DNA of 33,070 nucleotides, taken from positions 5,117 through 38,186 of the forward strand of contig JASEFR010000017.1 of NCBI GenBank assembly GCA_030019025.1, given 5' to 3'. The translations under genes and the position numbers were made by a program. Of this stretch, positions 2,418 through 33,070 are shown piece after piece (the stretch's first letter is position 1; each line of letters starts with the position of its first letter). The notes under the pieces were generated by a model. That model saw nothing but the letters and a program-made list of their open reading frames with translations. It did not search any database and had not been told where the DNA came from. This DNA comes from a bacterium (GTDB taxonomy: Bacteria > Hydrothermota > Hydrothermia > UBA1063).

Positions 2418-2427
2418 TAACGCCTCC

Positions 2428-2998: not shown

Positions 2999-3105
2999 TT
3001 TAGTTCTGAAGGGAGGGAAAAAGAACACTTTGATTGTTTTGAAGAGAGATTCTGATTGCATCCTAAAGGGACAATGTTATTCCTATAATTAAGATGCATA
3101 TTCCT

Positions 3106-3154
3106 AAAAATTTTAGAGTCATTAGCCAGGAAGGGAAAAGGCTAATGACTCTAA
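3106..3154 (-). terminator. Intrinsic terminator after the M23 peptidase pseudogene
   Basis: A perfect 15-bp inverted repeat (TTAGAGTCATTAGCC at 3113-3127 with its complement at 3140-3154) encloses a 12-nt loop. Read on the minus strand, the stem is followed within 2 nt by TTTTT (3110-3106), the pattern of a Rho-independent terminator. It begins 10 nt after the stop codon of the M23 gene at 3165, so it fits as that gene's terminator. No T-run follows on the plus strand. Confidence 0.65.
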
Positions 3155-3164
3155 GAAGTAAAAA

Positions 3165-3656: not shown

Positions 3657-4099
3657 TCCTTTTTAAGCTAACATAATTTGCGCAAATTTCGTGCCAAAAT
3701 TGTCTTTTTTTATATTCTTTTCGGGTTTAGACTTAAAAGTTCGAGCCCTTTGTGGGTGTCAAAATTTTCACACCCCCTTCCCAAAACTAACGTGAATAGA
3801 CATACTCTCAAAATCCAGCTACCAACGAGATTTAGCATCAACACTTTATTAAAAAAGTTGCTAATGCAGAATTTTCCACGAACCGATATGACAAATCCGT
3901 GAATATATGCTAACTAATTCTCACTACTTCCACCCCAAATGCAACTTAAATCCTTAAAAAACCTATAACGTCAAAGCCTCAATAATGTACATACGACCAA
4001 GTGGCTAATGTTATAAAACCGCTCAGATTTAATATTGGCACTATGTAACCTCTTTTAATCCTTGAAGTTACTTCGCTCTCTAAATGAAAGTTGGTAATA
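3625..4099. other. Intergenic, 14-bp palindrome, no gene seen
   Basis: About 475 bases without a supportable gene. A plus-strand frame at 3678-3902 has no SD and unremarkable composition. A perfect 14-bp palindrome, AATTTGCGCAAATT (3675-3688), lies 20-30 nt upstream of the M23 pseudogene's Shine-Dalgarno and could be an operator; there is no partner gene to support this. Confidence 0.3.
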
Positions 4100-16871: not shown

Positions 16872-16975
16872 AGGCGCAGCAATGGAGCAAAAGGCGCGTG
16901 AAAGGATGCAAGGAGTGTTCGGAAATGGCTCAAAGGGGACTTAAAGGGGACACAAAGGGGACAAAAGAGCCATGA
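16868..16975 (+). CDS. Mini-ORF (35 aa) bridging the AlbA_2 gene and hsdS by ATGA overlaps
   Basis: The ATG at 16868 overlaps the TGA of the AlbA_2 gene (ATGA), and its own TGA at 16973 overlaps the ATG of hsdS (ATGA). The peptide MKAQQWSKRRVKGCKECSEM... is very basic with two cysteines (KGCKEC). Its second half is made from three copies of an 11-bp unit (AAAGGGGAC plus 2 nt). Double ATGA overlap would let ribosomes pass from one gene to the next, so it may be a translational bridge rather than a functional protein. It is not recognised as a family. The chance of a spurious frame is real. Confidence 0.4.
   Translation: MKAQQWSKRRVKGCKECSEMAQRGLKGDTKGTKEP
16932..16962 (+). repeat. Three exact AAAGGGGAC repeats, period 11, just before hsdS
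   Basis: AAAGGGGAC occurs at 16932-16940, 16943-16951 and 16954-16962. Each contains a GGGGA Shine-Dalgarno-like core, and the last lies 9 nt before the hsdS start. Copy-number change of such a repeat could alter spacing or frame of the mini-ORF. Confidence 0.75.
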
Positions 16976-18279: not shown

Positions 18280-20041
18280 CCTGCTTTTCAAAAAGGTGGA
18301 TTACACCGTAGGAAAACTGCTGGAAGATATCGCAATTGGGGAAATCGGGCTGCCGGACATCCAGCGGCCCTTTGTATGGGACACTAGCCAGGTGCGTGAC
18401 CTCTTTGATTCCATGTACCGTGGTTATCCCATCGGCACCCTGCTCTTTTGGGAAAATGGCTATCCCGGCGAACACCGCATCATCGGGGTGGACAACAAGC
18501 AAAAGGTCCCCCACCTGCTCATCGTAGACGGCCAGCAACGCCTTACCGCGCTTTACGCGGTGATGAAGGGCGTGCCCATTGTGGACAAAGATTTCCAACA
18601 ACGCCGGTTACGCATTGCCTTCAACCCGGTAGAAGAGAAGTTCGAGGTCACCAACACAGCCATCGAACGCAGTCCGGAATGGATTCCCGACATCAGCGTG
18701 CTCTGGCAAACCGACTTTGATCAGTATGCTTTCGTCTCCGAGATTATGGAGCGCCTGGCCGAGCGCCACCTGCCCACCCCCGAAGACCGCAAACGGATTC
18801 CAAAGGCGATCCAGCGGTTGGTCAACCTCATCAACTACCCGCTGACCGCGCTGGAAATCTCGGTCAACGCCACGGAGGAACAGGTTTCGGAGATTTTCGT
18901 GCGCATCAACAGCCGTGGCCGCACCCTCAACCAGGCGGATTTCATCCTCACGCTGATGTCCGTCTTCTGGGATGAAGGCCGCAAAGAACTGGAAGACTTT
19001 GCCCGCCGGGCCAAGCAGCCCTCGGCGGATAACTGCCCATCTCCTTATAATCCGTACTTTCAGCCGTCGCCGGACCAACTGCTACGTGTGGATGTCGCCC
19101 TGGCCTTCCGCCGCGCCCGGTTGGAGCATGTCTATTCCATCCTGCGGGGCAAAGACTTGCAGACCGGCGAATTTTCGCCCGAACGCCGCGATGTCCAGTT
19201 TGCGCTCTTGCAAGAAGCCCAGGCCAAAGTGCTGGACCTGCAGAACTGGCACGAATTTCTTAAAGTGATCAAGCGGGCTGGATACATCCACCCCAAGATG
19301 ATTACCTCCGAAACGGCGCTGGTCTACACCTATGCCCTATGGCTCATTGGCAGCCGGGATTTTAGAATGGATCTCTCTAATCTTCGCGACCTAATGGCCC
19401 GGTGGTTCTTCATGAGCTCCCTCACCGGCCGCTACACCTCTTCCCCTGAGACGCGTATGGACCAGGATTTGGCCATGCTGCGCAATTTGTCCCGTGAGGA
19501 AGATTTCGTACGGGTCCTCGAGCACGAGATGGCCGCGGTGCTGACTCAGGACTACTGGAAGGTGACGTTGCCCAACGAACTGGCCACCGCATCGGCCCGA
19601 AACACCGGGCAATCTGCCTATTTCGCCGCTCTGTGCATCCTTGACGCGCCCGTGCTATATTCACGCATGAAGGTTCGCGACCTGCTGGACCCTTCTACTC
19701 ACGCCAGGAAACAGGCCCTGGAACGCCACCATCTATTTCCCCGAGGATATCTGCAGAGTCAGGGCATTACCGACCCCCGTGACATCAACCAAGTAGCCAA
19801 TTATGCGCTGGTGGAATGGTACGACAACATTGACATCAGCGATCAACCGCCGGCTGAATACGCGCCCCAATACGAAGCGCGCTTTAGCAGCGACGAGTTG
19901 CGGGAAATGTACGAGTTCCACGCCCTGCCCGAAGGATGGTACACCATGGATTACGAGACGTTTTTGGAAGAGCGCCGCAAACGCATGGCCGCCATCATTC
20001 GGCGGGGTTTCGAACGCCTTTCACAGGGACAGATATGCTAG
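18272..20041 (+). CDS. DUF262/GmrSD-like putative nucleotide-dependent DNase
   Basis: A 589-residue protein with a DUF262 N-terminal domain: DIQRPFVWDTSQVRDLFDSM (29-48), GYPIGTLLFW (51-60) and the hallmark LIVDGQQRLTAL (83-94), the proposed nucleotide-binding loop of GmrS. The middle (about 120-440) is the helical part with VRINSRGRTLNQADF. Near the C-terminus RHHLFPRGYLQSQ (from about 485) and INQVANYALVEW resemble the H...N beta-beta-alpha nuclease motif of GmrD/DUF1524. GmrSD, BrxU and SspE relatives cleave modified or phage DNA. Placed between hsdS and hsdR, it overlaps hsdS by 8 nt, so it is made with the RM subunits. Whether it attacks modified DNA, and how it spares DNA methylated by HsdM, is unknown. 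Confidence 0.85.
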   Translation: MSNLLFKKVDYTVGKLLEDIAIGEIGLPDIQRPFVWDTSQVRDLFDSMYRGYPIGTLLFWENGYPGEHRIIGVDNKQKVPHLLIVDGQQRLTALYAVMKGVPIVDKDFQQRRLRIAFNPVEEKFEVTNTAIERSPEWIPDISVLWQTDFDQYAFVSEIMERLAERHLPTPEDRKRIPKAIQRLVNLINYPLTALEISVNATEEQVSEIFVRINSRGRTLNQADFILTLMSVFWDEGRKELEDFARRAKQPSADNCPSPYNPYFQPSPDQLLRVDVALAFRRARLEHVYSILRGKDLQTGEFSPERRDVQFALLQEAQAKVLDLQNWHEFLKVIKRAGYIHPKMITSETALVYTYALWLIGSRDFRMDLSNLRDLMARWFFMSSLTGRYTSSPETRMDQDLAMLRNLSREEDFVRVLEHEMAAVLTQDYWKVTLPNELATASARNTGQSAYFAALCILDAPVLYSRMKVRDLLDPSTHARKQALERHHLFPRGYLQSQGITDPRDINQVANYALVEWYDNIDISDQPPAEYAPQYEARFSSDELREMYEFHALPEGWYTMDYETFLEERRKRMAAIIRRGFERLSQGQIC

Positions 20042-20086
20042 CCACAATCAATATGGGTAGATGTCGGCGTGGCCCTATAATCAATT

Positions 20087-20114
20087 TTGGCGCACAGCGT
20101 TTCGCCGCCATAAT
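20087..20114 (+). promoter_or_regulatory. Candidate internal promoter for hsdR
   Basis: TTGGCG (20087-20092) and CATAAT (20109-20114) with 16-nt spacing lie in the 144-bp gap before hsdR, the only real gap in the operon. TGGCG/CGCCA (20088-20092, 20106-20110) is an inverted repeat overlapping both boxes and could bind a repressor, allowing hsdR to be expressed later than the methylase. Inference only. Confidence 0.35.
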
Positions 20115-20185
20115 CTCTATATATCGCATTATATATACACATGTGGGAATACACGGAAATGCGACAAAAACCTCGGAGGCAGCCC

Positions 20186-23083
20186 ATGACCCTCGGGAGT
20201 GAACGGAAAGCAGTTCAAAACCCCTTCCTTCGCTATGCCCAGGAGGTGGGTTGGAAGTATCTTCCTCCAGAGGAAGCCCTGCGCCTTCGAGGTGGTGAGG
20301 ACAGCCCGATTTTAAGAACAGTTTTGATAGAACAGCTCCAGCGGCTTAACCCCGGTGCGGTAGATTCGGTAGCCAAAGCTGAAGAAATTATCGCCCGATT
20401 GGTGCGTGTAAGGCCCAACATTGAAGGGAACCTTGAAGCCTGGGAATATCTCAAAGGGCTTAAGACGGTCTTCGTAGAGGCCGAACGAAGAGAGAAAAAC
20501 ATCCGCCTTATTGATCCAAAGAATGTAGAAGCCAATACCTTCCACATCACGGACGAGTTTCGCTTCATTTCGGGTCACACCGGTATCCGAGCCGACATTG
20601 TACTCCTTGTCAATGGGATCCCCGTTGTTGTAGTGGAAACTAAGGCTGCCACTCGGTCTGAAGGGATCGCCGAGGCCTTTGACCAGATTCGCCGCTACCA
20701 CGAGCAGGGACCAGAACTTATGGCCCAAGCCCAGCTCTTCGCCCTCACCCATCTGGTCAGGTTCTTCTATGGCCCTACCTGGAACCTTTCCCGTAAGGCA
20801 CTGTTTAACTGGAAGGACGAGCAGGCAGGGGACTTTGAAACCTTAGTTAAGACTTTTTTGGCACCTCGCCGGTTGCTGCGTTTACTTACAGATTATATTC
20901 TCTTCGTTAGAAAGGATGGTGAACTTTCCAAGGCAGTACTCAGACCTCACCAGATGAGAGCAGCTGAGAAGGTGATCGTCAGGGCTGCTGATCCGGAGAA
21001 GCGGCGTGGTCTTATCTGGCATACTCAGGGGTCCGGTAAAACATACACCATGATCACAGTAGCCAAGTTGCTCTTAGAAGACCCTCATTTTGAGAACCCC
21101 ACGGTGCTCATGATAGTGGACCGCAATGAACTCCAGCAGCAGCTCTTCCAGAACCTGGAATCAGTGGGATTTAATCGAGTTGTTGTAGCTCAAAGCAAGC
21201 GTCACCTGCGCGACCTCCTGAAGCATGACACCCGGGGGCTGATTGTCTCAATGATCCACAAATTTGACGACGCTGATGCCAATCTAAACACTAGAAAAAA
21301 CATCTTTGTACTTGTGGATGAAGCCCACCGCTCCACCGGTGCTAACCTGGGGAACTATCTGATGGGTGCACTGCCCAACGCCACATTCATCGGCTTTACC
21401 GGCACACCTGTTGACAAAACAAGCCACGGAAAGGGCACCTTCAAGGTTTTCGGCGGTGGAGATCCTGGTGGTTATCTTGATAAGTATTCCATTCGCGAAT
21501 CTATCGAAGACGGTTCAACGGTCCCACTTCATTATCAGATGGCTCCCAACGATCTTGTGGTGGACCGAGAGGCGATGGAAAAAGAATTCTGGTCAGCAGC
21601 TGAACTTGAGGGCGTGGCCGACGTAGAAGAACTAAACCGTGTTCTTGACCGGGCTGTCACCCTTAAGAACATGCTCAAAAACCCTGACCGGATTGAGAAA
21701 ATCGCCGCTTTTGTGGCGGACCACTTCCGAAAATATGTGGAACCCATGGGCTACAAGGCCTTTCTGGTAGCGGTAGACCGCGAGGCTTGCTGTTTCTATA
21801 AAGAAGCACTCAATCATTACCTACCATCTGAGATGAGTCAGGTACTCATCAGTCGCGGGTATAACGATCCACCCCACATGCGGCGCTACCACATAAATGA
21901 AGAGGAAGAAGCTTCTATCCGCAGGGCTTTCCGTAAACCTGATGAAAACCCCAAGATCATAATTGTTACCGATAAGCTTCTTACCGGATACGATGCGCCC
22001 ATACTGTACTGCATATATCTGGACAAGCCTATGAGAGACCATGTACTGCTACAGGCTATCGCCCGTGTCAACCGTCCCTATGAAGACGAACAAGGCCGTC
22101 GTAAGACAAGCGGTTTGATCGTTGACTTCCTTGGCATCTTTAATAATCTGGAGCGCGCACTTGCATTTGACTCAAAAGATGTGGAAGGGGTCGTTCAGGG
22201 GCTGGAGGTATTGCAATCCCACTTTTCGGATATGATGCTTGAAGCACGGGAAAAATATCTTCCAATAGCTCAAGGGAAAAACGAAGACAAGGCCGCGGAA
22301 GCTGTTTTACTTTATTTTCGGGACAAAGAAATCCGCGAAAAATTCTATCGATTCTTCCGCGAACTTGAAGAAACCTACGAAATTCTCTCACCAGATCCAT
22401 TTCTTCGCCCTTATCTGGAGGATTACCAGAAGCTGGTAAACATGTATCGTCTCCTAAGAGGCGCTTACGAACCAGGCGTGCCAGTAGACAAGTCATTCCT
22501 GCATAAGACTGCTCAAATCGTGCAAAAACACACAACTACAGAAACAATACACGAACCGCACAAAACCTATGAAATCGGGGCTGGAGCGCTTCTGGCTTTG
22601 ACTAAAAACGATAAACCCGACACAGTAAAGGTGTTCAACCTTCTTAAAGAACTATATCGACTCGTTGAACTTGAAGGTAAAAAGGAACCCTATCTCATTC
22701 CCATCGGGGAGCGAGCAGAGGCTATTCGTCGTGCCTTTGAAGAACGACAACTTGACAGTCAGCAGGCTTTAGAACAACTTTCAGAACTGGTTCATGACAT
22801 TCAGGAAGCACAGACACAGCGACAGAAAAGTGAACTCTCACCGGAAGCTTTTGCTGTAGCCTGGTGGCTAAGAGTGCAAAAGGGAATTGACGCAAAACAG
22901 GCTGAAAAGCTGGCCGCTTCTTTGGAACCCGCCTTCCGAGACTTTCCCCACTGGGCTGTAAGTGCAACTCATGAGCGTGAACTACGCAAAAAGATTTACA
23001 AAGAGCTAATCAACGCGGGTATAAAGGATGTGGTTGCCTGGACCGACGAGATGTTCACCTTACTCCGAAAGGCTACGACATGA
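20186..23083 (+). CDS. hsdR: Type I restriction endonuclease/translocase subunit HsdR
   Basis: Motor and nuclease subunit that pulls unmethylated DNA and cuts it at a distance. Start 20186 (965 aa) is preferred over the longer frame from 20141 because GGAGG lies 6 nt before it. The nuclease domain shows RADIVLLVNGIPVVVVETKAA, with D137, E151 and K153 of the PD-(D/E)XK fold. The SF2 helicase core carries Walker A TQGSGKT (280-286), DEAH (378-381), TGTP (405-408), then TDKLLTGYDAP and LLQAIARVNRPYE for motifs V-VI. Further C-terminal helices bind HsdM/S. GC content is lower than in hsdM-hsdS-DUF262, suggesting a different origin for this half of the island. It ends in a 4-nt ATGA overlap with the next gene. 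Confidence 0.95.
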   Translation: MTLGSERKAVQNPFLRYAQEVGWKYLPPEEALRLRGGEDSPILRTVLIEQLQRLNPGAVDSVAKAEEIIARLVRVRPNIEGNLEAWEYLKGLKTVFVEAERREKNIRLIDPKNVEANTFHITDEFRFISGHTGIRADIVLLVNGIPVVVVETKAATRSEGIAEAFDQIRRYHEQGPELMAQAQLFALTHLVRFFYGPTWNLSRKALFNWKDEQAGDFETLVKTFLAPRRLLRLLTDYILFVRKDGELSKAVLRPHQMRAAEKVIVRAADPEKRRGLIWHTQGSGKTYTMITVAKLLLEDPHFENPTVLMIVDRNELQQQLFQNLESVGFNRVVVAQSKRHLRDLLKHDTRGLIVSMIHKFDDADANLNTRKNIFVLVDEAHRSTGANLGNYLMGALPNATFIGFTGTPVDKTSHGKGTFKVFGGGDPGGYLDKYSIRESIEDGSTVPLHYQMAPNDLVVDREAMEKEFWSAAELEGVADVEELNRVLDRAVTLKNMLKNPDRIEKIAAFVADHFRKYVEPMGYKAFLVAVDREACCFYKEALNHYLPSEMSQVLISRGYNDPPHMRRYHINEEEEASIRRAFRKPDENPKIIIVTDKLLTGYDAPILYCIYLDKPMRDHVLLQAIARVNRPYEDEQGRRKTSGLIVDFLGIFNNLERALAFDSKDVEGVVQGLEVLQSHFSDMMLEAREKYLPIAQGKNEDKAAEAVLLYFRDKEIREKFYRFFRELEETYEILSPDPFLRPYLEDYQKLVNMYRLLRGAYEPGVPVDKSFLHKTAQIVQKHTTTETIHEPHKTYEIGAGALLALTKNDKPDTVKVFNLLKELYRLVELEGKKEPYLIPIGERAEAIRRAFEERQLDSQQALEQLSELVHDIQEAQTQRQKSELSPEAFAVAWWLRVQKGIDAKQAEKLAASLEPAFRDFPHWAVSATHERELRKKIYKELINAGIKDVVAWTDEMFTLLRKATT

Positions 23084-23403
23084 AGAAAAACAAAAACAAT
23101 CCAATAGAAACTTTTCATGAAAATGTTACCCGGGATATCCTTATTGCTGAGGTACTCACCTGGGCTCGGCGTGTAGGCGTGGAAGATCGACTGCGAGAAA
23201 TTCAAATTCGCCCCATGAAGCAAAAGTGGGCAAGCATATCCACCCGAGGAAGACTTACCTTGAATCTTGAACTTTTGAACCAGCCTGCTTCATTTCGCCA
23301 TGAAGTCATCGTGCACGAACTCGTACACCTCAAGCTCGGGTACGGTGCTCACAATAAGCTTTTTAAAGCCCTTGTGCGAGCAATTCTTCACCAAACCACA
23401 TAG
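23080..23403 (+). CDS. YgjP-like (DUF45) zinc metallopeptidase, short form
   Basis: A 107-residue protein with HELVH (79-83) and a third ligand H91 in YGAHNKLF, as in the YgjP/SprT-type zincin domain; the preceding RLTLNLELLNQPASFRHEVI is the usual strand-helix leading into the zinc site. It is much shorter than E. coli YgjP (about 235 aa), keeping only the C-terminal zinc-binding half. Genes of this family often follow hsdR; their role in RM is unknown, perhaps proteolytic control of HsdR. Start ATG overlaps the hsdR stop (ATGA), so it is translationally coupled and ends the island's operon. Confidence 0.8.
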   Translation: MKKNKNNPIETFHENVTRDILIAEVLTWARRVGVEDRLREIQIRPMKQKWASISTRGRLTLNLELLNQPASFRHEVIVHELVHLKLGYGAHNKLFKALVRAILHQTT

Positions 23404-23421
23404 ATATTGAGCCTATCCTTT

Positions 23422-25356
23422 TTACGATCCCCCGATTTTTAGCCTGTGCTCTGCTGCTTCTAAAATGGCTTTGAGAAGTTCAGAATAAGACATTCCAGCA
23501 ATACCTGCCATCTTTGCAAGATGTCCGTCCCAACACCAGCCGGGATTGGGATTTACCTCAAGGAGTTTAGGATTACCTTCTGCATCAAGCCTCCAGTCAA
23601 ATCGGCAGTAATCTTTGCAATCCAGCCTCTCAAACAGCCTCAAACAACACCCCACAATGAATTTTTCTGTTTCCTCTGGAAGATTGGCGCGTATAGACTT
23701 AATGTTCCAGTAGGGAGAATCCGGAAGCCACTTGGCTTCGTACCCGCATATTTTGGGAAGCTCAGGCGGTAGAGCCGAGTAATCTTCCTCAATAACAGGC
23801 AAAACTCTGTAATCTTCTGGGGGATTCCCAATGATTCCCACGCTCAGATCTTTCCCCGTAAGGAATTCTTCCACTAAAATTGGTTTATCATAACCAAATT
23901 TTTTCCGAACTTCGGAAATTGTAGTCAAGAGTTCTTCAAAACTGTTTGCAACACTCTTTTGCGTAATTCCAAAACTTGAATCTCCAAAGTTGGGTTTCAC
24001 GATGACTGGAAAACTTAAAGGAAGCTCAAATATTATGTCTTCAGGGTTTATAAGAACGGCAGAAGGTACGGGGATTCCCATTTCTCTTGCAACACCGCGC
24101 ACGAGGGATTTGTCGTAACAATTAATAAGTGCCCGTGGCCCTGAACCAGTGTATGGAATACCAAGCATTTCCAGCAAAGCTGGTATATGGGCCTCCTTCC
24201 GTGGGTCGTTGTAATAACCTTCATCACACAAGTTAAATACGAAATCTATCTTGGGTTTCAGTTTCATCAGGTCATTAATCAGGGTATCATGATTGGTCAG
24301 GTAGGTAAAATTATATCCTTTAAGCTCCCTTAGAGCGTCCTTCAGTTGATCAATCGTGTAGAGGTCATCATCATCAAAAACACTTAAGGGCTTAAGTGGA
24401 TCTGGCTTCTGTGGATCGCCGAGAAGGACGACTACATTCCTGGTTGCCTTCGTTTCCTTCTTTTTAACCGGTGTCCATTGCTTTTTAGCCACAGCAGTCA
24501 CAACGATTCTTCTTTCCATCATCCCCAAATCCTGCTTCCTTTGAGAATCAGGTGAGATTTCTCCGTGAAACGTTACGTCACTGAAACCCACAGTTTTTAA
24601 AAGCTCGCTCAGGCTATCATGAGTATAAAGCCTTTCTGCATAAAACTGGTCTGCTATAACGCCTTTTTCCACATGAGTAATTATTTCTCTTGATATTAAA
24701 CGCTGTTTGTCCAGGGAAAGATAGCGCTCCCTGCAAACAAAATACTTTTTGTCTAACCACTCCCACGATCTGGGCTGAAAGTTTTCCCTCAGATATTCAC
24801 CATTAGCTACATCTATAAGAAGCCTTCCCCAGGGTTTGAGAACTCTGAAAACCTCTTTTAGAACTCTAAGATCCTCCTGAATCGTCTCAAAATAGCCAAA
24901 GCTGTTTCCCAGAATTAGCACAACATCAAAAGTATCAGGTGGATACGGCAGTTTTCTGGCATCTCCTTCCCTAAATTTGACATTTAAGTTTTCCTTTTTC
25001 GCCTGTGTTTTTGCCTTTTGAATCAGGTAGTGTGACCGGTCTAATCCTTCAACATTTTGAAAACCGCGCCTTGCCAGTTCTAAAGAATGACGGCCCTGTC
25101 CGCAGCATAAATCCAGAATTTTATCGTCTGGTGAAAGTCTGAGGATTTCCGAGAATATATCCACCTCCGCCTTAGTGATAAGCATATCATCCACCACATC
25201 TGCATCCGTTTTCAGGTAGAGTGAATTGAAAATCCGTCGCCACCAGTCTGGTGGCACCTGTTCTTCCACGTTAACCACAGGGCCGAGACACCTGGGGCCT
25301 TTTTCATTGACTGCCCTTTTTCGGACTATTTTAGGCTTGGATAATTTTTCATCCAT
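23422..25356 (-). CDS. Methyltransferase fused to a D-Ala-D-Ala-ligase-like ATP-grasp enzyme
   Basis: A 644-residue two-part enzyme. Residues about 35-290 are a class I SAM-dependent methyltransferase (DLCCGQGRHSLELA 82-95, GLDRSHYLIQKAK, DVVLILGNSFGYF 144-156). Residues about 307-635 are an ATP-grasp ligase like D-Ala-D-Ala ligase (FNLCDEG 374-380, IPYTGSGP 400-407, KPNFGDSSFGI 454-464, LLEVNPNPG 598-606). In Ddl the end motif is usually EINT-PG; here NPNPG, so substrate specificity may differ. Ligase plus methyltransferase in one chain suggests synthesis of a modified dipeptide or small peptide-like metabolite rather than cell-wall D-Ala-D-Ala; the substrate is unknown. AGGGGGT precedes ATG 25356. 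It converges on the RM island with an 18-nt gap. Confidence 0.82.
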   Translation of the reverse strand: MDEKLSKPKIVRKRAVNEKGPRCLGPVVNVEEQVPPDWWRRIFNSLYLKTDADVVDDMLITKAEVDIFSEILRLSPDDKILDLCCGQGRHSLELARRGFQNVEGLDRSHYLIQKAKTQAKKENLNVKFREGDARKLPYPPDTFDVVLILGNSFGYFETIQEDLRVLKEVFRVLKPWGRLLIDVANGEYLRENFQPRSWEWLDKKYFVCRERYLSLDKQRLISREIITHVEKGVIADQFYAERLYTHDSLSELLKTVGFSDVTFHGEISPDSQRKQDLGMMERRIVVTAVAKKQWTPVKKKETKATRNVVVLLGDPQKPDPLKPLSVFDDDDLYTIDQLKDALRELKGYNFTYLTNHDTLINDLMKLKPKIDFVFNLCDEGYYNDPRKEAHIPALLEMLGIPYTGSGPRALINCYDKSLVRGVAREMGIPVPSAVLINPEDIIFELPLSFPVIVKPNFGDSSFGITQKSVANSFEELLTTISEVRKKFGYDKPILVEEFLTGKDLSVGIIGNPPEDYRVLPVIEEDYSALPPELPKICGYEAKWLPDSPYWNIKSIRANLPEETEKFIVGCCLRLFERLDCKDYCRFDWRLDAEGNPKLLEVNPNPGWCWDGHLAKMAGIAGMSYSELLKAILEAAEHRLKIGGS

Positions 25357-25409
25357 ATTTTACCCCCTGAAGGGTGATGTATAGCCTGAGTTTATAGGAA
25401 TATTTAAAG

Positions 25410-25494
25410 TTTCGCCGTAAGGCGAAATCTGATTAGAAAAGGCGGCAAACTTGCGTCTACCGCCAGGTAACGGTATTTCCTCGTCCATCTAATC
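25410..25494 (-). promoter_or_regulatory. Possible structured 5' leader of the methyltransferase-ligase gene
   Basis: Within the leader, GATTAGA (25431-25437) pairs with TCTAATC (25488-25494). GGCGG (25441-25445) pairs with CCGCC (25460-25464), and TACCG (25458-25462) with CGGTA (25471-25475), the last two mutually exclusive. TTTCGCC/GGCGAAA (25410-25416, 25421-25427) is a tight hairpin with a GTAA loop. It resembles a switchable RNA but matches no riboswitch class I know. Confidence 0.3.
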
Positions 25495-25699
25495 CCCCGC
25501 CAATGTAAGTGCTTTATTATAATCTTCACCTTTTGAAAAAAAGCAAGTTTTACTTCCTGCGTTTTCCAGGCCTTTCAGCATGCTTATCATTCAAATTTTG
25601 AAAACTTCGTTTGTAACTTTTCCAAAATTTGACAAAAGCCGGCATTGTAAACAAAAATGTGTCAAGGGGAGGGAAAGCTCCTTTGGGGGAGAGATAAAA
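25495..25699. other. Intergenic with a long AT inverted repeat
   Basis: About 200 bases without a gene. TCAAATTTTG (25591-25600) and CAAAATTTGA (25623-25632) form a 10-bp inverted repeat extending by AAAA/TTTT with one bulge. It borders the transposase remnant and could be a leftover transposon end or a terminator-like hairpin. Confidence 0.35.
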
Positions 25700-26140
25700 A
25701 TGACTAACAGGTCAATCACAAAAAATTTTTAAGGGATAAAAGAAGAAATTTTAAGGGAGAAGCGAGCGGAATATTCAAGGGAGCATCAAGAGACAGAGAA
25801 GAACGGGGATTACACAGGAAATCCAAGGACGATAGTAGGAGAGATATACCGTGATATTTTTTACACGAAGGAAAAGATGTGGAAAACGATTATTCAGGGC
25901 TCTAAGGAACCAAAGATTAAAGAGAATAAAGATGATAATAAGCGATGATTCAAGAGAATTGAGAGAGGCGATAGGAGATGAATTTCCAGAGGCAAAGCAT
26001 CAATTATTCCGGTTTCATTTAAAGATAAATATAAACAACCGGGTAAGAAAAAGAGATTTGGGAAAAATACTATAAGACCTAAATGAAATAATCAAGGCCA
26101 ATGGAAATCGGAAGGAGAAAAGAAGTTAACAGAGTTCATA
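25700..26140 (+). pseudogene. Decayed IS256/Mutator-family transposase
   Basis: The plus strand reads EEILREKRAEYSREHQETEKN and TGNPRTIVGEIYRDIFYTKE, then after a frameshift LRNQRLKRIKMIISDDSREL, REAIGDEFPEAKHQLFRFHL and KININNRVRKRDLG. The 'SDDSRELREAI...FPEAKHQLFRFHLK' block is diagnostic for the catalytic core of IS256/Mutator transposases (the DD region and HLKRN-like helix). Large parts are missing, including the upstream DDE aspartate region and the C-terminal glutamate. Stop codons and shifts show it is dead. Terminal inverted repeats were not identified. Confidence 0.75.
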
Positions 26141-26159
26141 TTATCCACCGCTATACGTT

Positions 26160-26166
26160 GTTAGCT
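26160..26166 (+). other. GTTAGCT core site at the left end of the membrane-protein cassette
   Basis: GTTAGCT fits the integron R' consensus GTTRRRY, as does GTTAGGC at 27118-27124. On the minus strand this is AGCTAACAACGTATAGCGG, like the R'' arm of an attC that would follow the membrane-protein gene; its other half appears to be lost at the transposase remnant. Weak evidence on its own. Confidence 0.3.
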
Positions 26167-26174
26167 AATACCCA

Positions 26175-27002
26175 TCACTTTTTCTCCTTTGTGGATTCTA
26201 CCAGTTGTATCTTTTTAAAAGAAAGGATGAGAGCATAGATAGAGATAAAGACCAAGGGGAGATGTAACACTCCATTCCACCACAAAATATCGGGCTTAAT
26301 CAAAAAATTCTCTACCATATTCCAGAAACCAATGATTATTCCAGCGAGGCTTGTAACCCTAAGGGTTACGATATTAACCTTGGGATAATAAAAAGTGAGT
26401 ATTCCAAGATATACAGGCGTCATGGTACAAAAGGCTAAACCCGCTGGGTTTGTGAATAAATAAACAAGATTAAAATCAGGTTTCATTGATTCAAGGTTTA
26501 CTGGATACCAGAAGGCTAAAAATGCTAATGGGACAACCCAATATCTTGTAATAGGTAGTTTTTGAGGAGTGAAATTATTTTTATTAACAGATGCCTCCCA
26601 GAACCAGAAGATGGAAACAAGTATCATGAGGATGAAATTACCTGTCACCATTCCAAAACCATATTTATCGGTTATCGCGATACCTTGAAGAAATGCAAAA
26701 AGAAGATAATTAATACCAACATAAAAAGAAAAGATTCTGCCAATTCGATTTCCATACAAAATTAAAGCAAAAACTAAAATAATTGGAATAATTTTGAAAA
26801 CAGGATACAAAGGAGAGCAAAATCTAAGCAAGGAATTCTGGCGTATATGTCTTATAATTTCACCTATTTTAGAAGGATCAAATCCTTTTGTAACAATCGG
26901 TGGACTTATCGTTCCGACCAGAATAAAAAGAACTAAAAACCACCATTTACGAGTTATTAATTCAAGTGTCCCTTGAATTTTTTCAAGATTTTCTTTTTTC
27001 AT
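26175..27002 (-). CDS. Multi-spanning inner-membrane protein, unknown function
   Basis: A 275-residue protein, most of it transmembrane: about eight hydrophobic helices can be read, e.g. WWFLVLFILVGTISPP, IIPIILVFALILYG, YLLFAFLQGIAI, FILMILVSIFWFWE, WVVPLAFLAFWYPV and FISIYALILSFKK. No known transporter motif is recognised. ATG 27002 is chosen over a GTG at 27011 since GGGAGG sits 8 nt before it. The gene lies between two integron-like core sites (26160 and 27034-27124) on the minus strand, downstream of the type III operon, as one cassette would. It could be an accessory gene captured with the RM genes; its job is unknown. Confidence 0.6.
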   Translation of the reverse strand: MKKENLEKIQGTLELITRKWWFLVLFILVGTISPPIVTKGFDPSKIGEIIRHIRQNSLLRFCSPLYPVFKIIPIILVFALILYGNRIGRIFSFYVGINYLLFAFLQGIAITDKYGFGMVTGNFILMILVSIFWFWEASVNKNNFTPQKLPITRYWVVPLAFLAFWYPVNLESMKPDFNLVYLFTNPAGLAFCTMTPVYLGILTFYYPKVNIVTLRVTSLAGIIIGFWNMVENFLIKPDILWWNGVLHLPLVFISIYALILSFKKIQLVESTKEKK

Positions 27003-27033
27003 AATCTTCACCTCCCTTGATTAATCCGATTGC

Positions 27034-27124
27034 GTATAACATTTTGCGGACATACGAAGTCCCGACGATACTCGGGATTTGGGCGGAGGTGCGAAGCACC
27101 GTAGCCGTATGTCTGCTGTTAGGC
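27034..27124 (-). other. Integron attC-like recombination site at the end of res
   Basis: A 91-bp imperfect palindrome bounded by GTATAAC (close to RYYYAAC) and GTTAGGC (a perfect GTTRRRY). TAACA (27037-27041) pairs with TGTTA (27117-27121). After a TTTT bulge, GCGGACATACG (27046-27056) pairs with CGTATGTCTGC (27106-27116) with one G-T. The centre holds two more hairpins, TCCCGA/TCGGGA (27060-27065, 27072-27077) and GGTGC-GAA-GCACC (27088-27100). Extra-helical bases on one arm are typical of attC. The res stop codon (TAA) is part of the GCCTAAC core, as in many cassettes. No integrase gene is in the window. Confidence 0.5.
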
Positions 27125-29956
27125 GACATCAGCCGTATTGTCTCTCTCACAATCTTCAAGATAGAGTTTTCCACTCCAATCTTTCTCTCGTAAGTATAAA
27201 TATACCCATCTATTGTTAGTGGCTTTGCTCACAGCCTCGCACCACTTTAAAGCAGCGATATTCTTATCAGGAACCTGAATCTCCTCCCTTCCCTTGGTTT
27301 CAATAAGATAATACCCATGATTTGTTTTCACAATAAAATCTGGATAGAACTTCCTCCATTTCCTTTCTCTTGAATCATAATAGGTGATTTTTAATCCCAC
27401 TATATTTGGTATGTTTTTTATGAAGGATATTACATCATCAGCCATTGTTAAAAAGTTTACGAAATCAGCCTCCATATTATTATCCACTGGTGAGGAAGGA
27501 ATTCTTACCTCTTCATCGTCCTCATAAGCAATTCTAACAAATAAGCTCTTTTCTGAGTCAGCAAACTCTTTTGTCCAAGGAAAGCTATCAAGTTCCTCTA
27601 CCTTAATGACCTGCTTCAATTCCACCTCTGTTGAAAAAACGGGATTACTTATCAATGGTTTAGCAAACTCTATTATTTCCATTTTGATCTGCGAATACCA
27701 ACCCTTTACCGATAGAAATCTCAATACAGCATCATCTAATTCAACAGGTTCGTCAAAAAGCTTTTCTGAAATATAGTTCTCTAAAGCATTAAGAAGTAAA
27801 TTAAAAGAATTCGGGAGAGGTATTTCTTCCTGTAAATCTCTTGCTAGTTGAGTTAGTCGTATAATAGAAACATCATATGCCAATGCCTCTATCTCCCCTT
27901 CATCCAAGGTCTGCCCTTTCAAGTCAATAACCTCGTAGTCATATTTTTTCTTGAATTCATCAATTTCAGCTAGCTTATAAACATTTGATGGCAACTTTGA
28001 AAAGATCTCCTTTATAATAGCTTCAACATCTATATTCTCGTTGAAAGATAGAAATTCCGCTTTTGGGATCTCAAACTTCAATTCTTCTTCTGCTTCTATT
28101 CGAGGATTAAACGATACAAAGAACTCTTTTGGAGCTTCTGGAATTTTTATACCTTCAAGCCGTTCAAGGTCATCCAAAACCTTAATGAGATTGGGAGGCC
28201 CCACAACCTCCAAAATATTTACCCATTTTTCTACATTAACACCTTCTTCTGGAAAAAGTTTTCTTAATCCCCTCCCTATGACCTGCTCCGGCAGTATCTC
28301 CCTTTCAGAAGCATAAGATCTAAGCCCTAAAATCACTGTAACCGAGCGGACATCCCAACCTTCGTTCAGCATCATAACGCTGGATATAACCTCTATAGGG
28401 TTATAGGGATCATCAAGTTTCCTTACAAGCTCTACAGCAAGCTCCTTATCAATATCCCTTTCTTCACCGTTTATCCGAATCTTTGATACAATCTCCTTTC
28501 CTTTTTCTTTTAATCTTGTTTTCCATTCATCAAGTTCTGAATGAACAAGCATCATGTTTGATGAATCAATGTCAGGTTCTTCAAGCAGTTTTTCATAAAT
28601 TGCTTCTGCATTTGATATTTCATCTGCCATTATGAATAGAACAGATTTTCTTCCAAGTTCTCTTAATTTCTCTTTATGTTTTCTCCATCTATCTAAAGCA
28701 GCCTTTATGTAGGGTATAAAGTCGTCTATGCTAAAACCTTTTTTGATGGGTGGAGCATCATGGACTATAACCTTTGCTGGATATTTCACAATTCCAGTTT
28801 GCAATGCTTCTCTTAAAGAAAAATCTACAATTATCCACGGAAACAAAGCCCCTTTTTCATCCTTTGGGGTTGCAGTAAAATCAAGTTCCATAAAGATGCC
28901 TTTAGAGTGATTTGAAAGCATAGCCTCGTGTAAACTCCAGAGATAATTCTGCCAACTGCTTTCCTCCCTGTGTATGTGATGGGCTTCATCTTTCAGAATC
29001 ATAAGGTTAGGATAGTTATTTAGTATTTCCCACAGTTTAATCGATTTTGCTTTGTATGGTTCACTTCCAGGATAAGGAATATCAAACAATGGGGTTATAA
29101 TATCTTCTTCTTTCTTCCTTTTCTCTCTAAAACCTATCTGATGGATATTTGTTACAAATATCACGCTCTCATCATCCGGTGGCGGGAACCTATCAGCATC
29201 TGAAAACGTATCCCTTGTGATCACTTGAACTTTAAAATTTCTTTTCCACTCTTCCGGAATAAGGTGGAATTCCTCATATATTGATAAATCCTCAAGGTCT
29301 TTCCTTAGCCTGTCGTAAACTATTATGTTCGGCGCTACAAAAAGAAAGAATCTCGTGTATTTCTCTCTATCCTCATAAAGGTAGTTGAAAAATGACCATA
29401 CAGTTAGGAGAGCCATCGCAAGGGTTTTTCCTGAGCCTGTTGCCATTCTAAAAGCAAATCTTGGATATTTATCGTATTCTTCGTATCCTGAAAGTTTGAA
29501 AGCACCATATTCATTCAAAAGTTCACTAACTTTCGTGATTCCTTTAACTTCATATAAATAAATCAGCGTTTCAACAGCCTCCCGTTGGGAGAACCAGAAT
29601 ACTTTGTCTCTTGGCTGTTCAAACCAGAAATTAAGTAAATATCTCGTCGTATCAGTTACGTTCGGATATCCCTCCTCTCTCCATCTCTTGACTTCTAATC
29701 TTAAATTATTTACGCAGACAGCCTCCGATGGGAACCTTGCATAAGGATCCCCATTCTTTCTCTGCTCATTAGCCCATGCAATACCGTTTAAGATGTATTC
29801 TCTGAACTTCCTTTTAACATTATCAAGATATGGATCCTCAATTCTGATTTCCTTAGGATAAGGTTCAAGAATTGAATCAGGGTGGATGAAAGTTATGTCT
29901 GATGAGGGCTTTCTCACCTCAAATGTCATAACATCTTTTTTCTTTTTTCTTGACAT
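27119..29956 (-). CDS. res: Type III restriction enzyme Res subunit (SF2 helicase + PD-ExK nuclease)
   Basis: Res moves along DNA from its target and cuts when two complexes meet. The start at 29956 (945 aa) is preferred because AAGGGAGA lies just upstream and the longer frame (to 30082) would overlap the preceding gene by 124 nt. Motifs in order: FRMATGSGKT with Walker A at 171-178, then LKDEAHH (DEAH box), LDFTATP (motif III), VMMLNEGWDVRSV (motif V), QVIGRGLRK (motif VI). The nuclease domain near the C-terminus reads YPDFIVK...YYLIETKG, with D873, E886 and K888 of PD-ExK. It is the last gene of the operon, 2 nt after the PIN-TM gene, and its stop codon lies inside the attC-like site. Confidence 0.93.
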   Translation of the reverse strand: MSRKKKKDVMTFEVRKPSSDITFIHPDSILEPYPKEIRIEDPYLDNVKRKFREYILNGIAWANEQRKNGDPYARFPSEAVCVNNLRLEVKRWREEGYPNVTDTTRYLLNFWFEQPRDKVFWFSQREAVETLIYLYEVKGITKVSELLNEYGAFKLSGYEEYDKYPRFAFRMATGSGKTLAMALLTVWSFFNYLYEDREKYTRFFLFVAPNIIVYDRLRKDLEDLSIYEEFHLIPEEWKRNFKVQVITRDTFSDADRFPPPDDESVIFVTNIHQIGFREKRKKEEDIITPLFDIPYPGSEPYKAKSIKLWEILNNYPNLMILKDEAHHIHREESSWQNYLWSLHEAMLSNHSKGIFMELDFTATPKDEKGALFPWIIVDFSLREALQTGIVKYPAKVIVHDAPPIKKGFSIDDFIPYIKAALDRWRKHKEKLRELGRKSVLFIMADEISNAEAIYEKLLEEPDIDSSNMMLVHSELDEWKTRLKEKGKEIVSKIRINGEERDIDKELAVELVRKLDDPYNPIEVISSVMMLNEGWDVRSVTVILGLRSYASEREILPEQVIGRGLRKLFPEEGVNVEKWVNILEVVGPPNLIKVLDDLERLEGIKIPEAPKEFFVSFNPRIEAEEELKFEIPKAEFLSFNENIDVEAIIKEIFSKLPSNVYKLAEIDEFKKKYDYEVIDLKGQTLDEGEIEALAYDVSIIRLTQLARDLQEEIPLPNSFNLLLNALENYISEKLFDEPVELDDAVLRFLSVKGWYSQIKMEIIEFAKPLISNPVFSTEVELKQVIKVEELDSFPWTKEFADSEKSLFVRIAYEDDEEVRIPSSPVDNNMEADFVNFLTMADDVISFIKNIPNIVGLKITYYDSRERKWRKFYPDFIVKTNHGYYLIETKGREEIQVPDKNIAALKWCEAVSKATNNRWVYLYLREKDWSGKLYLEDCERDNTADVA

Positions 29957-29958
29957 TT

Positions 29959-31860
29959 TTATTCTCCCTTCAAAAATCCTTTTATTCTCTTCACAAGAAA
30001 CTGTTTGCTCTGTTTGACTGTTATTCCTAACGCTCCCAAAATAAATAAAATAACTGTGAAAACTATGCTGATAGCCTTCCATATCGTTCCCTTCAAAAGT
30101 AACGATAATACAAGTAAAATAATTCCAAGCGATAGACTAAACCAGATTATCATTGTGGCGTATTTTTGTGCTCTTCTAGAGAGTTTTTCTTCTCTTTCCT
30201 TCTCCTTTCTTTTCATTTGTTCTAGTTCTTCACGGGTTTTTTCGTGGCTCCGTCTTTCCTCTTCGTATTTCTGCGATGCTCTTTGTTCAATTTCCTGCAG
30301 AATTTCAATAGCTGTTTTAGGAGATATAGCTTCTGGATCACCCAAGTTTTTTTTATCTAAAAGTTCTCGCGCAATTTGAGAATCACGCAGAAGAATGAAA
30401 TCTTCCTCGGTTATATTTCCTTCTGTTAAAAGTTTTTTAATCTCTGAATACCACTTTTCCATAAATTCGCCACTGTCTCGTAGAATAGCCATAGACATTG
30501 AAATGAGAGTCATAGGCATTATTTCTTGAACCTTGACAGGATCATTAAGCCATACCATTGTACCCAAGAAAATATCAGTTATGCATGGTGGGATATAAAA
30601 ACCCCGCGGAGATTTTTCTTTATGAAATACACTAGAAGCATAGGCAAGACCGGCATTAGAAGTGATAAAGATACATTTTGCCTGTTTAAGATTAATTGGT
30701 TTACTTCCTTGCCAGAGCTGATATATAGCCGAAATTGATTGTACGTCTCTTTCTATTGTGAGTTCTTTTTCACAATACACAAAGCTAGGATTTTTCTCAT
30801 AAATTTCTCTTATATAATTTTTCAGCTTATTCCTATCTATGCTATATTCAGGCTTTTCTTGAGGAGTAAGTTCAATTTCTATACCTATATTTAACAAATT
30901 ATCTTTTAATTTATCACTAATCAATATAATATCGGATTGATGAAAACCTTTTTCTTTAAAATGCCTCAAGGACAAGCTTGCTTTTGACGGATCATACGCG
31001 GGGCTATCTATCCATTTATAACAGTCATCCAAAATATCCATTACTTCCTCATAAGTATGTTGAAAAATGCGAAGTTTAATTCCTTCCTCTTTCAATTTAT
31101 TTATAAAATTCTTATATATTTCTTTCATCTCTTCTCCTTCTCCACCTATAAGTCGCAAAATTATTCTTGTATCTAGATATACTTTTAGTCCTTTTAATTT
31201 AGTCTTTATTGCATTCTGATCGTATAAAATAATATTTGAAAGCAAATACCCTGTTGCAACATTTTGAAGGAGCGACCATCCATCCTTATCATTCTCGTAC
31301 ATATAAAGAATCACTCTGTTGACAATAAACAACTCTTCACGTTTTTCAGAAATTATCGTTCTTTTAAGAACATCTAAGCCTTCAATTTCGCTGGTAAGCG
31401 CGGATGGACCAAAACTATTTAAATAATTTATAAGAGCATTTTTTATTCGATCTTCTGTAATCGACTTTTGAGGGAAAATATTACTGGCGTGCGCTGCTAT
31501 TATTTTGATTAAATTATTAACGGAACGTTCGGCACTATTGACATTAAATACGTATTTACTAAGTTCTTCTTCTTTAATGTAATATGTATGTTGCGTTTTC
31601 TCTAAAAGTTTTCTTTTTCTAGCTCTATTTAACAATGATAAGAGTGGATGATAAGGAATCTTAAGACCAAATTCTTCTTCAATTTCTTTGGAAATACGAT
31701 TTACAAATTCAGAGGTTTCATCTATAGATGAATAATTTTTTCTTCTAAAAAATTCAGCTAAAAAGTAGAGATATATATCCAATAAATCCTTACCTTCCTT
31801 ATCCCATAGTACCTTAAGATACGCCAAACTTACCAAGGTTTTTTCTGATGCCTGCTCCAT
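29959..31860 (-). CDS. PIN-like nuclease with coiled coil and two C-terminal TM helices
   Basis: A 633-residue protein inserted between mod and res. Residues 65-110 look like a small helix-turn-helix-like segment (LKIPYHPLLSLLNRARKRKL). Residues about 222-440 resemble a PIN-like domain: GLKVYLDTRIILRL with D230, HTYEEVMDILDD with E271/E272, IERDVQSISAIYQL with D372, and CIFITSNAGLA with S401/N402, the four expected acidic/polar positions. A long coiled coil (about 520-565: QEIEQRASQKYEEERRSHEK, REELEQMKRKEKEREEKL) leads to two TM helices (571-589 and 594-613) and a basic tail. It suggests a membrane-anchored RNase or DNase effector. It lies 7 nt after mod and 2 nt before res. I know no named family for the whole protein. 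Confidence 0.6.
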   Translation of the reverse strand: MEQASEKTLVSLAYLKVLWDKEGKDLLDIYLYFLAEFFRRKNYSSIDETSEFVNRISKEIEEEFGLKIPYHPLLSLLNRARKRKLLEKTQHTYYIKEEELSKYVFNVNSAERSVNNLIKIIAAHASNIFPQKSITEDRIKNALINYLNSFGPSALTSEIEGLDVLKRTIISEKREELFIVNRVILYMYENDKDGWSLLQNVATGYLLSNIILYDQNAIKTKLKGLKVYLDTRIILRLIGGEGEEMKEIYKNFINKLKEEGIKLRIFQHTYEEVMDILDDCYKWIDSPAYDPSKASLSLRHFKEKGFHQSDIILISDKLKDNLLNIGIEIELTPQEKPEYSIDRNKLKNYIREIYEKNPSFVYCEKELTIERDVQSISAIYQLWQGSKPINLKQAKCIFITSNAGLAYASSVFHKEKSPRGFYIPPCITDIFLGTMVWLNDPVKVQEIMPMTLISMSMAILRDSGEFMEKWYSEIKKLLTEGNITEEDFILLRDSQIARELLDKKNLGDPEAISPKTAIEILQEIEQRASQKYEEERRSHEKTREELEQMKRKEKEREEKLSRRAQKYATMIIWFSLSLGIILLVLSLLLKGTIWKAISIVFTVILFILGALGITVKQSKQFLVKRIKGFLKGE

Positions 31861-31867
31861 CGTTTTT

Positions 31868-33070
31868 TCAACCCCTCACATTAACCATAATCTCCTTTGA
31901 AGTCTCTCCGCCAAATATGTCCGTTATCTTAACCACGACTCTGTAGGTTCCTGATCGCTCATAAGTATGGGTCGCCTTAACAATCACATTCCCTTCTCCA
32001 GGTTTTTTATCAAAACTTACAAAATCATGTTTGAAGACAGCCCCATCGTAATTCCAGTCTACAGCCCAGTAGTTTATGAGCGGAAGGAAATACTTCTGTC
32101 TTTCTTGGTCGCTTTTTGCTTCTTGAATTCTCTTTCTTATCTCCTCTTCAAGTTCCTCATAGCCGTGTGGAAGCTCCACCCAAAAGTCCTTAATTTCAAT
32201 TTCCACTTTTAGTCCGTCCTCCTTTACTTCAAGCCACACATACCCCGGCTCTATAAACCTCAGATGCTTCCTTACTTCCTCATCAAAGGCATATTCAAGC
32301 CTTGCAACCTTTGATAAATCAAGGTTGTATCTCTTCATAACTTCGTCAAGTTTTCCAATAGGTGGAATGTGCAAGAGCTTTAACTTAACATCCTGCATCT
32401 CCCATAAATCTTTGGCCCTCTCAAAAGTATCAGGTGCCCAGTCCCATCCGAGGATCACGAGAGTCCATCCATCTCTGTAGAAAGGTGTTTCTTTAAATTC
32501 CTTAATAACTTCGTGGATCTCAGCAGGTGTCACCGGAAAGTTCGCCTGACCAACATGAATTATTTCTCTCTCCTTCTCTCTTAAGCCGTGAAGATACTTA
32601 AATACTTGCCTCATCGGAGATGCCCCGTAAAGATTCAGAATCAGATTAATAACATCCACTCTGTTATACATCTTATCCGTCATGTAGTTTGCTATGGTCA
32701 CGTGGTAGAAAGGCCTTACAGGCTTTCTATAAAGGGGTCTTTTGCTCTCGTCCTCAACCTTTACGCCGAGTGCCATTGAATTCGCTATATCCAAAAGCCT
32801 CTTTCTCGTTACATGAATCGCATACTTTGACATATCACAGCATACCCATCTTCTTCCAAGTTTCTCAGCAACTGCCGCAAGAGTCCCAGACCCACAGAAG
32901 AAGTCAGCCACGATGTCGCCTTCGTTTGAAGATGCCAGAATAATGCGTTCAAGGAGCTTTTCGGGTTTTTGGGTGGGATAGTTTAAATTTTCCTCAGCAT
33001 TTGGCCTTAAATATGGTATCTCCCACCAATCTTCAGGGATTTTGCCTTCAGGGTGTATCTCCCTTACAAA
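31868..33070 (-). CDS. mod: Type III DNA methyltransferase Mod, C-terminal part (5' end outside window)
   Basis: Adenine methyltransferase and specificity subunit of the type III system. The 400 visible codons continue open past the window edge, so the gene starts to the right and the catalytic DPPY motif is not visible. Visible parts are YPTQKPEKLLERIILASSNE, the conserved Mod segment, and IVADFFCGSGTLAAVAEKLG, the SAM-binding motif I, then GRRWVCCDMSKYAIH. The middle (FKETPFYRDGWTLVILGWDW) belongs to the Mod C-terminal region. The last 60 residues (HDFVSFDKKPGEGNVIVKAT, ERSGTYRVVVKITDIFGGET) look like a PKD-type beta-sandwich, unusual for a cytoplasmic methylase. Mod is first in the mod-PIN/TM-res operon. 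Confidence 0.88.
   Translation of the reverse strand, partial: FVREIHPEGKIPEDWWEIPYLRPNAEENLNYPTQKPEKLLERIILASSNEGDIVADFFCGSGTLAAVAEKLGRRWVCCDMSKYAIHVTRKRLLDIANSMALGVKVEDESKRPLYRKPVRPFYHVTIANYMTDKMYNRVDVINLILNLYGASPMRQVFKYLHGLREKEREIIHVGQANFPVTPAEIHEVIKEFKETPFYRDGWTLVILGWDWAPDTFERAKDLWEMQDVKLKLLHIPPIGKLDEVMKRYNLDLSKVARLEYAFDEEVRKHLRFIEPGYVWLEVKEDGLKVEIEIKDFWVELPHGYEELEEEIRKRIQEAKSDQERQKYFLPLINYWAVDWNYDGAVFKHDFVSFDKKPGEGNVIVKATHTYERSGTYRVVVKITDIFGGETSKEIMVNVRG

Follow-up and report, generated by a model that had tools for sequence, protein, structure and literature searches.

The window (the whole stretch of 33,070 nucleotides analysed, at the right-hand end of C17, a contig of a 1.73 Mb draft genome) ends in a type III-like restriction operon whose methylase gene mod and restriction gene res are separated by the gene of a large protein, here called X (Table 1). 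With a confidence only slightly better than even, we conclude that X is an independent, membrane-held abortive-infection RNase of the PIN type that uses the restriction operon for its expression and spread.

Table 1. Features of the mod-X-res operon, same-strand restriction genes within 500 nt of X, and contents of the mod-res slot in relatives.
Place	Feature	Position	Strand	Basis
Window	X, 633 aa; PIN-domain protein with two C-terminal hydrophobic segments	29959..31860	minus	
Window	mod, 3' part, 400 aa; type III-like DNA methyltransferase	31868..33070	minus	
Window	res, 945 aa; type III-like restriction helicase-nuclease near the BPTD_3080 family	27119..29956	minus	
Window	possible winged-helix domain, X residues 25-105	31546..31788	minus	Z ≤ 7.8
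Window	PIN domain with D230, E272, D372 and N402, X residues 224-440	30541..31191	minus	model and alignment
Window	part of long helix, probable coiled coil, X residues 514-570	30151..30321	minus	model
Window	first hydrophobic segment, X residues 571-589	30094..30150	minus	Kyte-Doolittle mean 2.72 (19 residues)
Window	second hydrophobic segment, X residues 597-615	30016..30072	minus	Kyte-Doolittle mean 2.68
Window	attC-like recombination site, 93 bases, beyond res; res stop codon inside the first core	27033..27125	minus	
Window	type III neighbour of X, same strand			
L022	X overlaps hsdS by 17 nt; hsdM-like gene upstream, hsdR downstream			
L050	X after hsdS, 490 nt			
L053	X fragment before hsdR, 271 nt			
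L073	X 71 nt after hsdR of hsdMSR			
L026	X 68 nt after a TdeIII-type endonuclease gene			
L118	slot: methylase, Csa1-like and BrxC/D-like genes			
L119	slot: methylase and BrxC/D-like genes			
L121	slot: MNT-HepT between two mod pieces, then a 23S_rRNA_IVP-family gene, then res	1485-4612		
L125	slot: NYN			
L135	slot: BRO-N			
L143	slot: GIY-YIG			
L123, L124	slots: proteins without a Pfam match at E ≤ 0.01			
L133	slot: small ORFs			

The minus-strand order is mod-X-res with gaps of 7 nt (mod/X) and 2 nt (X/res), as the first-pass annotation had given them. The listed start of res is an ATG at 30082, which overlaps X, and the reading frame is open that far; a start at 29956 fits the L018 homologue (MSRKKKK in one, MPRKRKS in the other) and leaves the gap of 2 nt. 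Shine-Dalgarno-like stretches for X and res lie within the last codons of the preceding gene. The tight, co-directional placement of the three genes makes their coexpression likely, as that annotation had argued from the spacing. The end of C17, which is also the right end of the window, cuts mod, whose N-terminal 272 aa are found at the start of contig C11 (C11:1-816). The hallmarks of a type III system are present, with X separating them: mod matches an N6/N4 methylase (Pfam N6_N4_Mtase, 5.4e-27; PADLOC MTase_III, 4.3e-41) and res matches ResIII (Pfam, 2.1e-14; PADLOC REase_III, 3.8e-21). Res scores 274.7 bits with the NCBIfam BPTD_3080 restriction family, under its cut-off of 800 bits. X is the most A+T-rich of the three genes (G+C 0.325, against 0.428 for mod and 0.369 for res). 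Elsewhere in the window, a type I restriction operon on the plus strand (13940-23083) holds a GmrSD_N (DUF262) gene between hsdS and hsdR (18272-20041, overlapping hsdS by 8 nt), and at 23422-25356 a methyltransferase domain and a D-Ala-D-Ala ligase-like ATP-grasp domain are fused in one protein.

An AlphaFold2 model of the whole of X, built from 7 sequences, has a mean pLDDT of 70.4, and a model of the PIN part alone, from 6 sequences, has a pLDDT of 87.8 and a pTM of 0.88. Foldseek found no match in the PDB at E ≤ 0.001 with either the whole or the domain model (best E 0.17 and 0.027, respectively), and its top rows for the whole model were non-PIN proteins. A second aligner, re-ranking the Foldseek list, matched the whole model with VapC2 over 128 residues at 2.7 Å (Z 10.8) and the PIN domain model alone with VapC (Z 10.6), and superposed residues 224-440 on VapC and other PIN proteins. 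Most of the structural neighbours listed are VapC-type toxins, protein-only RNase P, or exosome and SMG6 PIN domains; RohQ and PcrIIC1 are the exceptions. The alignment with VapC upholds the PIN-like fold that had been proposed from the sequence, Foldseek E-values being weak. Residues 25-105 resemble VanR/PadR- and MarR-type regulators with Z up to 7.8, a value below 8 that may reflect merely a common arrangement.

PIN domains carry an acidic motif of D, E and D plus a fourth residue, D, N, S or T. An acidic quartet had been suggested for X with two candidates each at the second and fourth positions (E271/E272 and S401/N402), and the alignment confirms it as D230, E272, D372 and N402, E272 and N402 being the conserved ones. 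D230, E272 and D372 do not vary among the 25 aligned sequences, of which X is one; at position 402, 22 of them have N and 3 have D, and T400 is present in 23. X thus has two features of the PIN superfamily, an α/β/α fold and conserved acidic residues, and on the model we regard its PIN reading as sound, the metal-dependent nuclease activity typical of the superfamily being predicted. A single helix spans residues 514-588 in the model, and its length makes a coiled coil at residues 514-570 probable. At least two C-terminal hydrophobic segments are found in 24 of the 25 sequences, again with X among them; the sole sequence without the two segments, L003, ends beside an IS. Both the coiled coil and the pair of C-terminal transmembrane helices read earlier from the sequence are in agreement with these data.

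The X family has no name in the libraries searched. The Pfam PIN model scores 12.8 bits on X against a cut-off of 23.6, and the weak matches in Pfam, NCBIfam and PHROGs fall mostly at the coiled-coil/membrane end, none of them above any given cut-off. No model of PADLOC-DB (2023) matched X at E ≤ 1, giving no link there to a known defence system. Six PDB sequences matched at E ≤ 1, the best two (0.011 and 0.02) being prefoldin, at residues 472-553. Partial matches to X occur within longer proteins in G388, G115, G151, G169, G666 and G949. Proteins of 639-792 aa in L054, L055, L058, L059, L078 and L085 match the X profile weakly and may form a wider superfamily with it.

X is rare and scattered. 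It is present in 11 of 72,556 plasmid records, the same 11 being recovered with two other queries and 10 of them with a third, and two queries found it in none of 50,697 phage records. Neighbourhoods were covered for 6 of the 11 plasmids, one of six Enterococcus plasmids included, and in these X has no restriction genes nearby, the exception being the L005 copy described below. DNA similarity to the Klebsiella copy identified X in 2 of 5,426 E. coli genomes, both times amid P2-like prophage genes. One of these copies lies between Ogr-like and late control D genes; the second is flanked by tail-fibre assembly and tail sheath genes, the position at which P2 carries fun(Z). Both positions differ from the cos-proximal hotspot of P2-like phages, placed between gpA and gpQ in the accessible part of PMC9122126.

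A profile search at E ≤ 0.001 detected X in 6 of 147 genomes of the phylum and in 15 of 390 relatives across the domain, overlapping sets that do not give clean prevalences. Three further phylum searches by profile detected it in 10 of 398, 4 of 400 and 3 of 45 genomes, sets centred on X-holding genomes and likewise not clean prevalences; all these counts include fragments, partial matches and the centre genomes. A single-sequence search of 40 relatives found X in none, scans of viral contigs with X or small alignments each yielded one locus or none, and a scan of genome contigs yielded 3. By record name X occurs in at least six phyla (Bacillota, Pseudomonadota, Bacteroidota, Actinomycetota, Nitrospinota and Stahlbacteria). 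Broken copies occur, that of G541 for instance being split into three; the L053 and L032 sequences are fragments, and the profile score of L031 is the same as that of L029.

Most of the 28 X loci show no restriction gene nearby. In six of them X has a restriction gene of type I, II or III no more than 500 nt away on its own strand, a lower bound because detection was by BLAST against only 18 reference proteins (two mod and two res among them) and several loci have a short flank on one side (L024, L028, L031, L049, L050, L053, L073 and L074). X is embedded in a restriction operon in the window, by mod and res, and in L022, between hsdM- and hsdS-like genes. Five of the six restriction-adjacent loci could be placed on a 25-row tree of X and need five changes on it, a count that carries no shuffle control and that suggests independent joins of X to restriction genes. 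Built without L053, L032, L031 and the fragments L075-L077, this tree has several long branches and leaves 8 of its 22 inner branches open; its group table, with 7 labelled rows only, was uninformative (2 changes against a shuffled mean of 1.9).

Across the X loci no neighbours recurred beyond restriction genes, recombinase or transposase genes, shared phage genes and one weak match, between long proteins at two loci. With no recurring partner beside it, X seems to need no fixed partner. Defence-type genes near X comprise a SAVED/nucleotidyltransferase locus in L002 and AbiJ_NTD4 in L022. The type I operon of L022 (2748-16744) has several extra genes between its hsdM-like gene and hsdS, including AbiJ_NTD4 and X; others among them we take, by eye, to be RhuM-like, Fic-like and nucleotidyltransferase-like. 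A gene in L072 is, also by eye, presumably MTase-like.

Res of the window has matches at E ≤ 0.001 in 85 of 390 relatives. For a census of the mod-res junction we used 35 loci from the better full-length matches (two loci each from G282 and G079), short or broken matches in G028, G143, G121 and one in G117 being left out. No mod was found in the available bases of 12 loci; the remaining 23, to which the window does not belong, were resolved, having a co-oriented mod no more than 7 kb upstream of res. In 9 of the 23, one or more co-directional ORFs of at least 80 aa separate mod from res (Table 1), so that the earlier statement that type III systems normally contain mod and res alone is too strong for this Res family. 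X itself occupies the slot in none of the 23 other resolved loci. By BLAST against the two mod and two res references, mod and res adjoin X in one of the 27 other X loci, L005, where X is divergent from them. Homologues nearly always lacking mod/res neighbours was an outcome that the first-pass annotation had itself named as refuting, and we reject a fixed three-gene system.

The contents of the slot vary, and the protein in the L123 slot is presumably MBL-like, as judged by eye. In L120 (1112-5188) an AbiEi-AbiEii pair identified by Pfam stands directly before res, overlapping it by 23 nt at the listed starts, and in L122 (2913-7052) a pair that we take by eye to be of the AbiEi/AbiEii type runs into res with an overlap of 23 nt, also at the listed starts. 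RhuM precedes res in L136. No mod was seen upstream in these three loci. Two plasmid loci outside the census have DUF3800 (L090) and nothing (L089) between mod and res. In the closest relative, G034, whose Res is 73% identical, mod and res are 3 nt apart with nothing between them. From the comparison of these loci the mod-res junction of this Res family appears as a recurrent cargo slot, by a count that has no background from other operons. Given the X-free operon of G034 and the varied slot contents, a clean insertion of X is probable, at a junction open to other genes too.

The position of X could also mean that it is guarded in the manner of PrrC, the Mod/Res complex keeping X inactive until a phage that blocks or outlasts restriction frees it to stop translation. 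We consider this, the main rival reading, unlikely, while granting it a real chance. The narrow gaps of 7 nt and 2 nt around the embedded gene, with their apparent translational coupling, are consistent with it, as are the type I, II or III genes near X in six of 28 loci and the five changes among 25 tree rows. Most of the 28 loci have no restriction gene nearby, which makes restriction proteins unlikely as a general silencer, and the slot is filled by very different genes in relatives, as expected for cargo. Moreover, types I, II and III share, to our knowledge, no single subunit to which X could bind.

A precedent for such a guard is PrrC of EcoPrrI (type Ic), like X a predicted RNase encoded within a restriction operon and a possible back-up when restriction fails, and the idea of toxins in type I and III systems has already been published (PMC12707154, PMC3506569). 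PrrC is, according to the latter, an ABC ATPase with an anticodon nuclease domain in a type I system (PMC3506569), whereas X is a PIN protein with hydrophobic segments in which the Pfam scan matched neither of those two domains, and it lies here in a type III operon and mostly has no restriction genes nearby. In the same accessible text Makarova et al. 2012 propose toxin-like genes in type I and III restriction loci, naming HEPN, Sir2, ParB and REase-fold domains, and name PIN-type RNases in operons of restriction-like nucleases and helicases with COG1517 proteins (PMC3506569). These loci resemble ours in having swappable toxins inside restriction operons, type III included; they differ in that the accessible text has no mention that we found of a membrane PIN protein between mod and res.

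We favour instead the view that X acts autonomously. Gene order, predicted fold, conserved residues and hydrophobic segments are read from the sequence and the model, as are the standalone occurrence of X, the several kinds of restriction operon beside it and the X-free close relative of mod-res. The autonomous reading is supported by the PIN fold with its conserved residues and hydrophobic segments, by the copies without restriction genes and the lack of a recurrent partner, and also by the defence-type neighbours, the X-free G034 operon and the higher A+T content of X than of mod and res. The N-terminal half of X would be sensing or regulatory, the PIN domain would act as an RNase in the cytoplasm, and the C-terminal coiled coil and membrane hairpin would hold the protein at the inner membrane, in a presumed topology. 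The gene would spread by horizontal transfer and would here have entered the mod-res junction of a type III-like operon, where X is probably translated together with mod and res. The protein most likely stays latent at the membrane until infection, the presumed trigger, activates it independently of Mod and Res; activated X would then cut RNA and the infected cell would stop growing, with RNA as substrate, growth arrest and phage defence all proposed on these grounds. Of the two roles first suggested for X, an abortive-infection layer remains plausible and a regulator of Res is less likely, an independent gene being favoured. Against this autonomous reading stand the weak Foldseek and Pfam PIN matches, the lack of a PADLOC match and an activity that is only predicted, and the six of 28 loci with same-strand restriction genes within 500 nt could reflect a real functional link. 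RNA is not a certain substrate either, as PIN-like nucleases act on DNA too, for example Exo1, at rank 9 in the Foldseek list of the domain model.

If DNA were the substrate, X might cut phage DNA during its injection without cell suicide, as a membrane-held entry defence. SNIPE, a single-gene defence in which a nuclease is joined to a membrane anchor, shows that such a principle is feasible (PMC13190303), and the DNA cutting of PIN-like nucleases such as Exo1 fits the idea. We nevertheless think it quite unlikely for X: SNIPE combines GIY-YIG with DUF4041 and an N-terminal membrane segment (PMC13190303, accessible part), whereas X is a PIN protein with hydrophobic segments at the opposite end, the Pfam scan matched neither DUF4041 nor GIY-YIG in it, and its best structural neighbours are mostly RNases.

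It is improbable that X mainly stabilises its mobile carrier as an addiction gene with little to do with phages, although it has a patchy distribution, often on mobile elements (plasmids, prophages and possibly an integron-like cassette) and PIN toxins are common in toxin-antitoxin pairs. No small antitoxin-like neighbour recurs across the X loci, no VapB-type antitoxin gene stands beside X in the window (its neighbours are mod and res), and broken copies such as that of G541 exist. VapC shares the PIN fold and acidic active-site residues with X, and differs in being a small single-domain protein of about 130 aa that lacks the hydrophobic segments and the extra N-terminal half. Least probable of all is a functionless passenger whose reading frame happens to remain open after a chance insertion; among the loci examined the mod-X-res arrangement is confined to this genome and the A+T-rich gene may be recent, yet its catalytic residues and both hydrophobic segments are intact and ribosome-binding-like stretches for X and res are kept at the junctions.

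The operon as a whole may be one integron-like cassette that measures at least about 6.9 kb (837 bases on C11 and 6,038 in the window, the gap between C17 and C11 not being closed), its left end being the less certain. An attC-like site follows res (Table 1), and a search of 135 genomes found related sites in 17, that of the window included. A site model, trained on 7 rows including the window's, scores the window site at 93.5 bits and matches the window once, L153 at two spaced sites, L156 three times and L157 twice, with ORFs between the sites in L153 and L156. The cassette-opening bases GTTAGGCGACATCA, directly ahead of mod on C11, when reverse-complemented match at 14 of 14 positions the stretch that runs from the end of res into the start of the site. 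This complementarity hallmark is seen for both neighbouring-site pairs in L156, partly in L153 and not in L157. The left end of the operon has GTTAGGCG and a perfect 14-nt inverted repeat, whose fold is more stable than all shuffles (z -4.6, 0 of 200 as stable); the fold of the 3' attC-like site has a z of only -1.69 (8 of 200 as stable). At E ≤ 1 the site model had no match in L025, the operon left end, or in L018. An Rfam search of 23000-33070 gave one sub-threshold match. Across the phylum attC-like sites sharing a conserved inner portion are widespread, those of L151-L159 among them, and some form short arrays (L153 and L156).

The operon is thus like integron cassettes in its attC-like site, complementary to the cassette-opening bases, and in the tandem of similar sites in some relatives, and unlike them in holding three genes in about 6.9 kb or more, with no model site at its left end and no intact integrase found here. 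The contig gap, the single model-matching site and the lack of an intact integrase are the weak points of the cassette reading. As an alternative, the operon could be a tRNA-borne island with a Xer-like recombinase: beside mod on C11 lies a 167-aa C-terminal remnant of a tyrosine recombinase that scores 123.6 bits with the integron-integrase model, in two stretches (cut-off 265), and is outscored there by the XerA, XerD and XerC models, and a tRNA-Asn is close to mod on the same contig. The inverted repeat, recombinase remnant and tRNA-Asn lie upstream of mod at L025:842-1927, an arrangement that suggests an integration site.

Like the first-pass annotation, which knew of no description of such a system, we found none of a PIN/membrane protein in a type III operon in the open-access literature searched, and the Res family name (BPTD_3080) returned no paper there. 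That literature yielded no account of the X family, of its occurrence within restriction operons of several kinds, of the mod-res slot as counted here or of the integron-like frame.

A broader reading, to which we give little credence, is that BPTD_3080-type III systems use their mod-res junction as an effector slot, with the restriction complex serving as shared sensor or silencer of swappable toxins (MNT-HepT and the membrane PIN nuclease, perhaps also AbiE, NYN and further ones), and that whole loaded operons can travel as integron-like cassettes. The copies in P2-like prophages make the X family testable in ordinary E. coli, and the mod-res junction offers a countable case for whether the toxins of restriction operons are functional partners or mere cargo.
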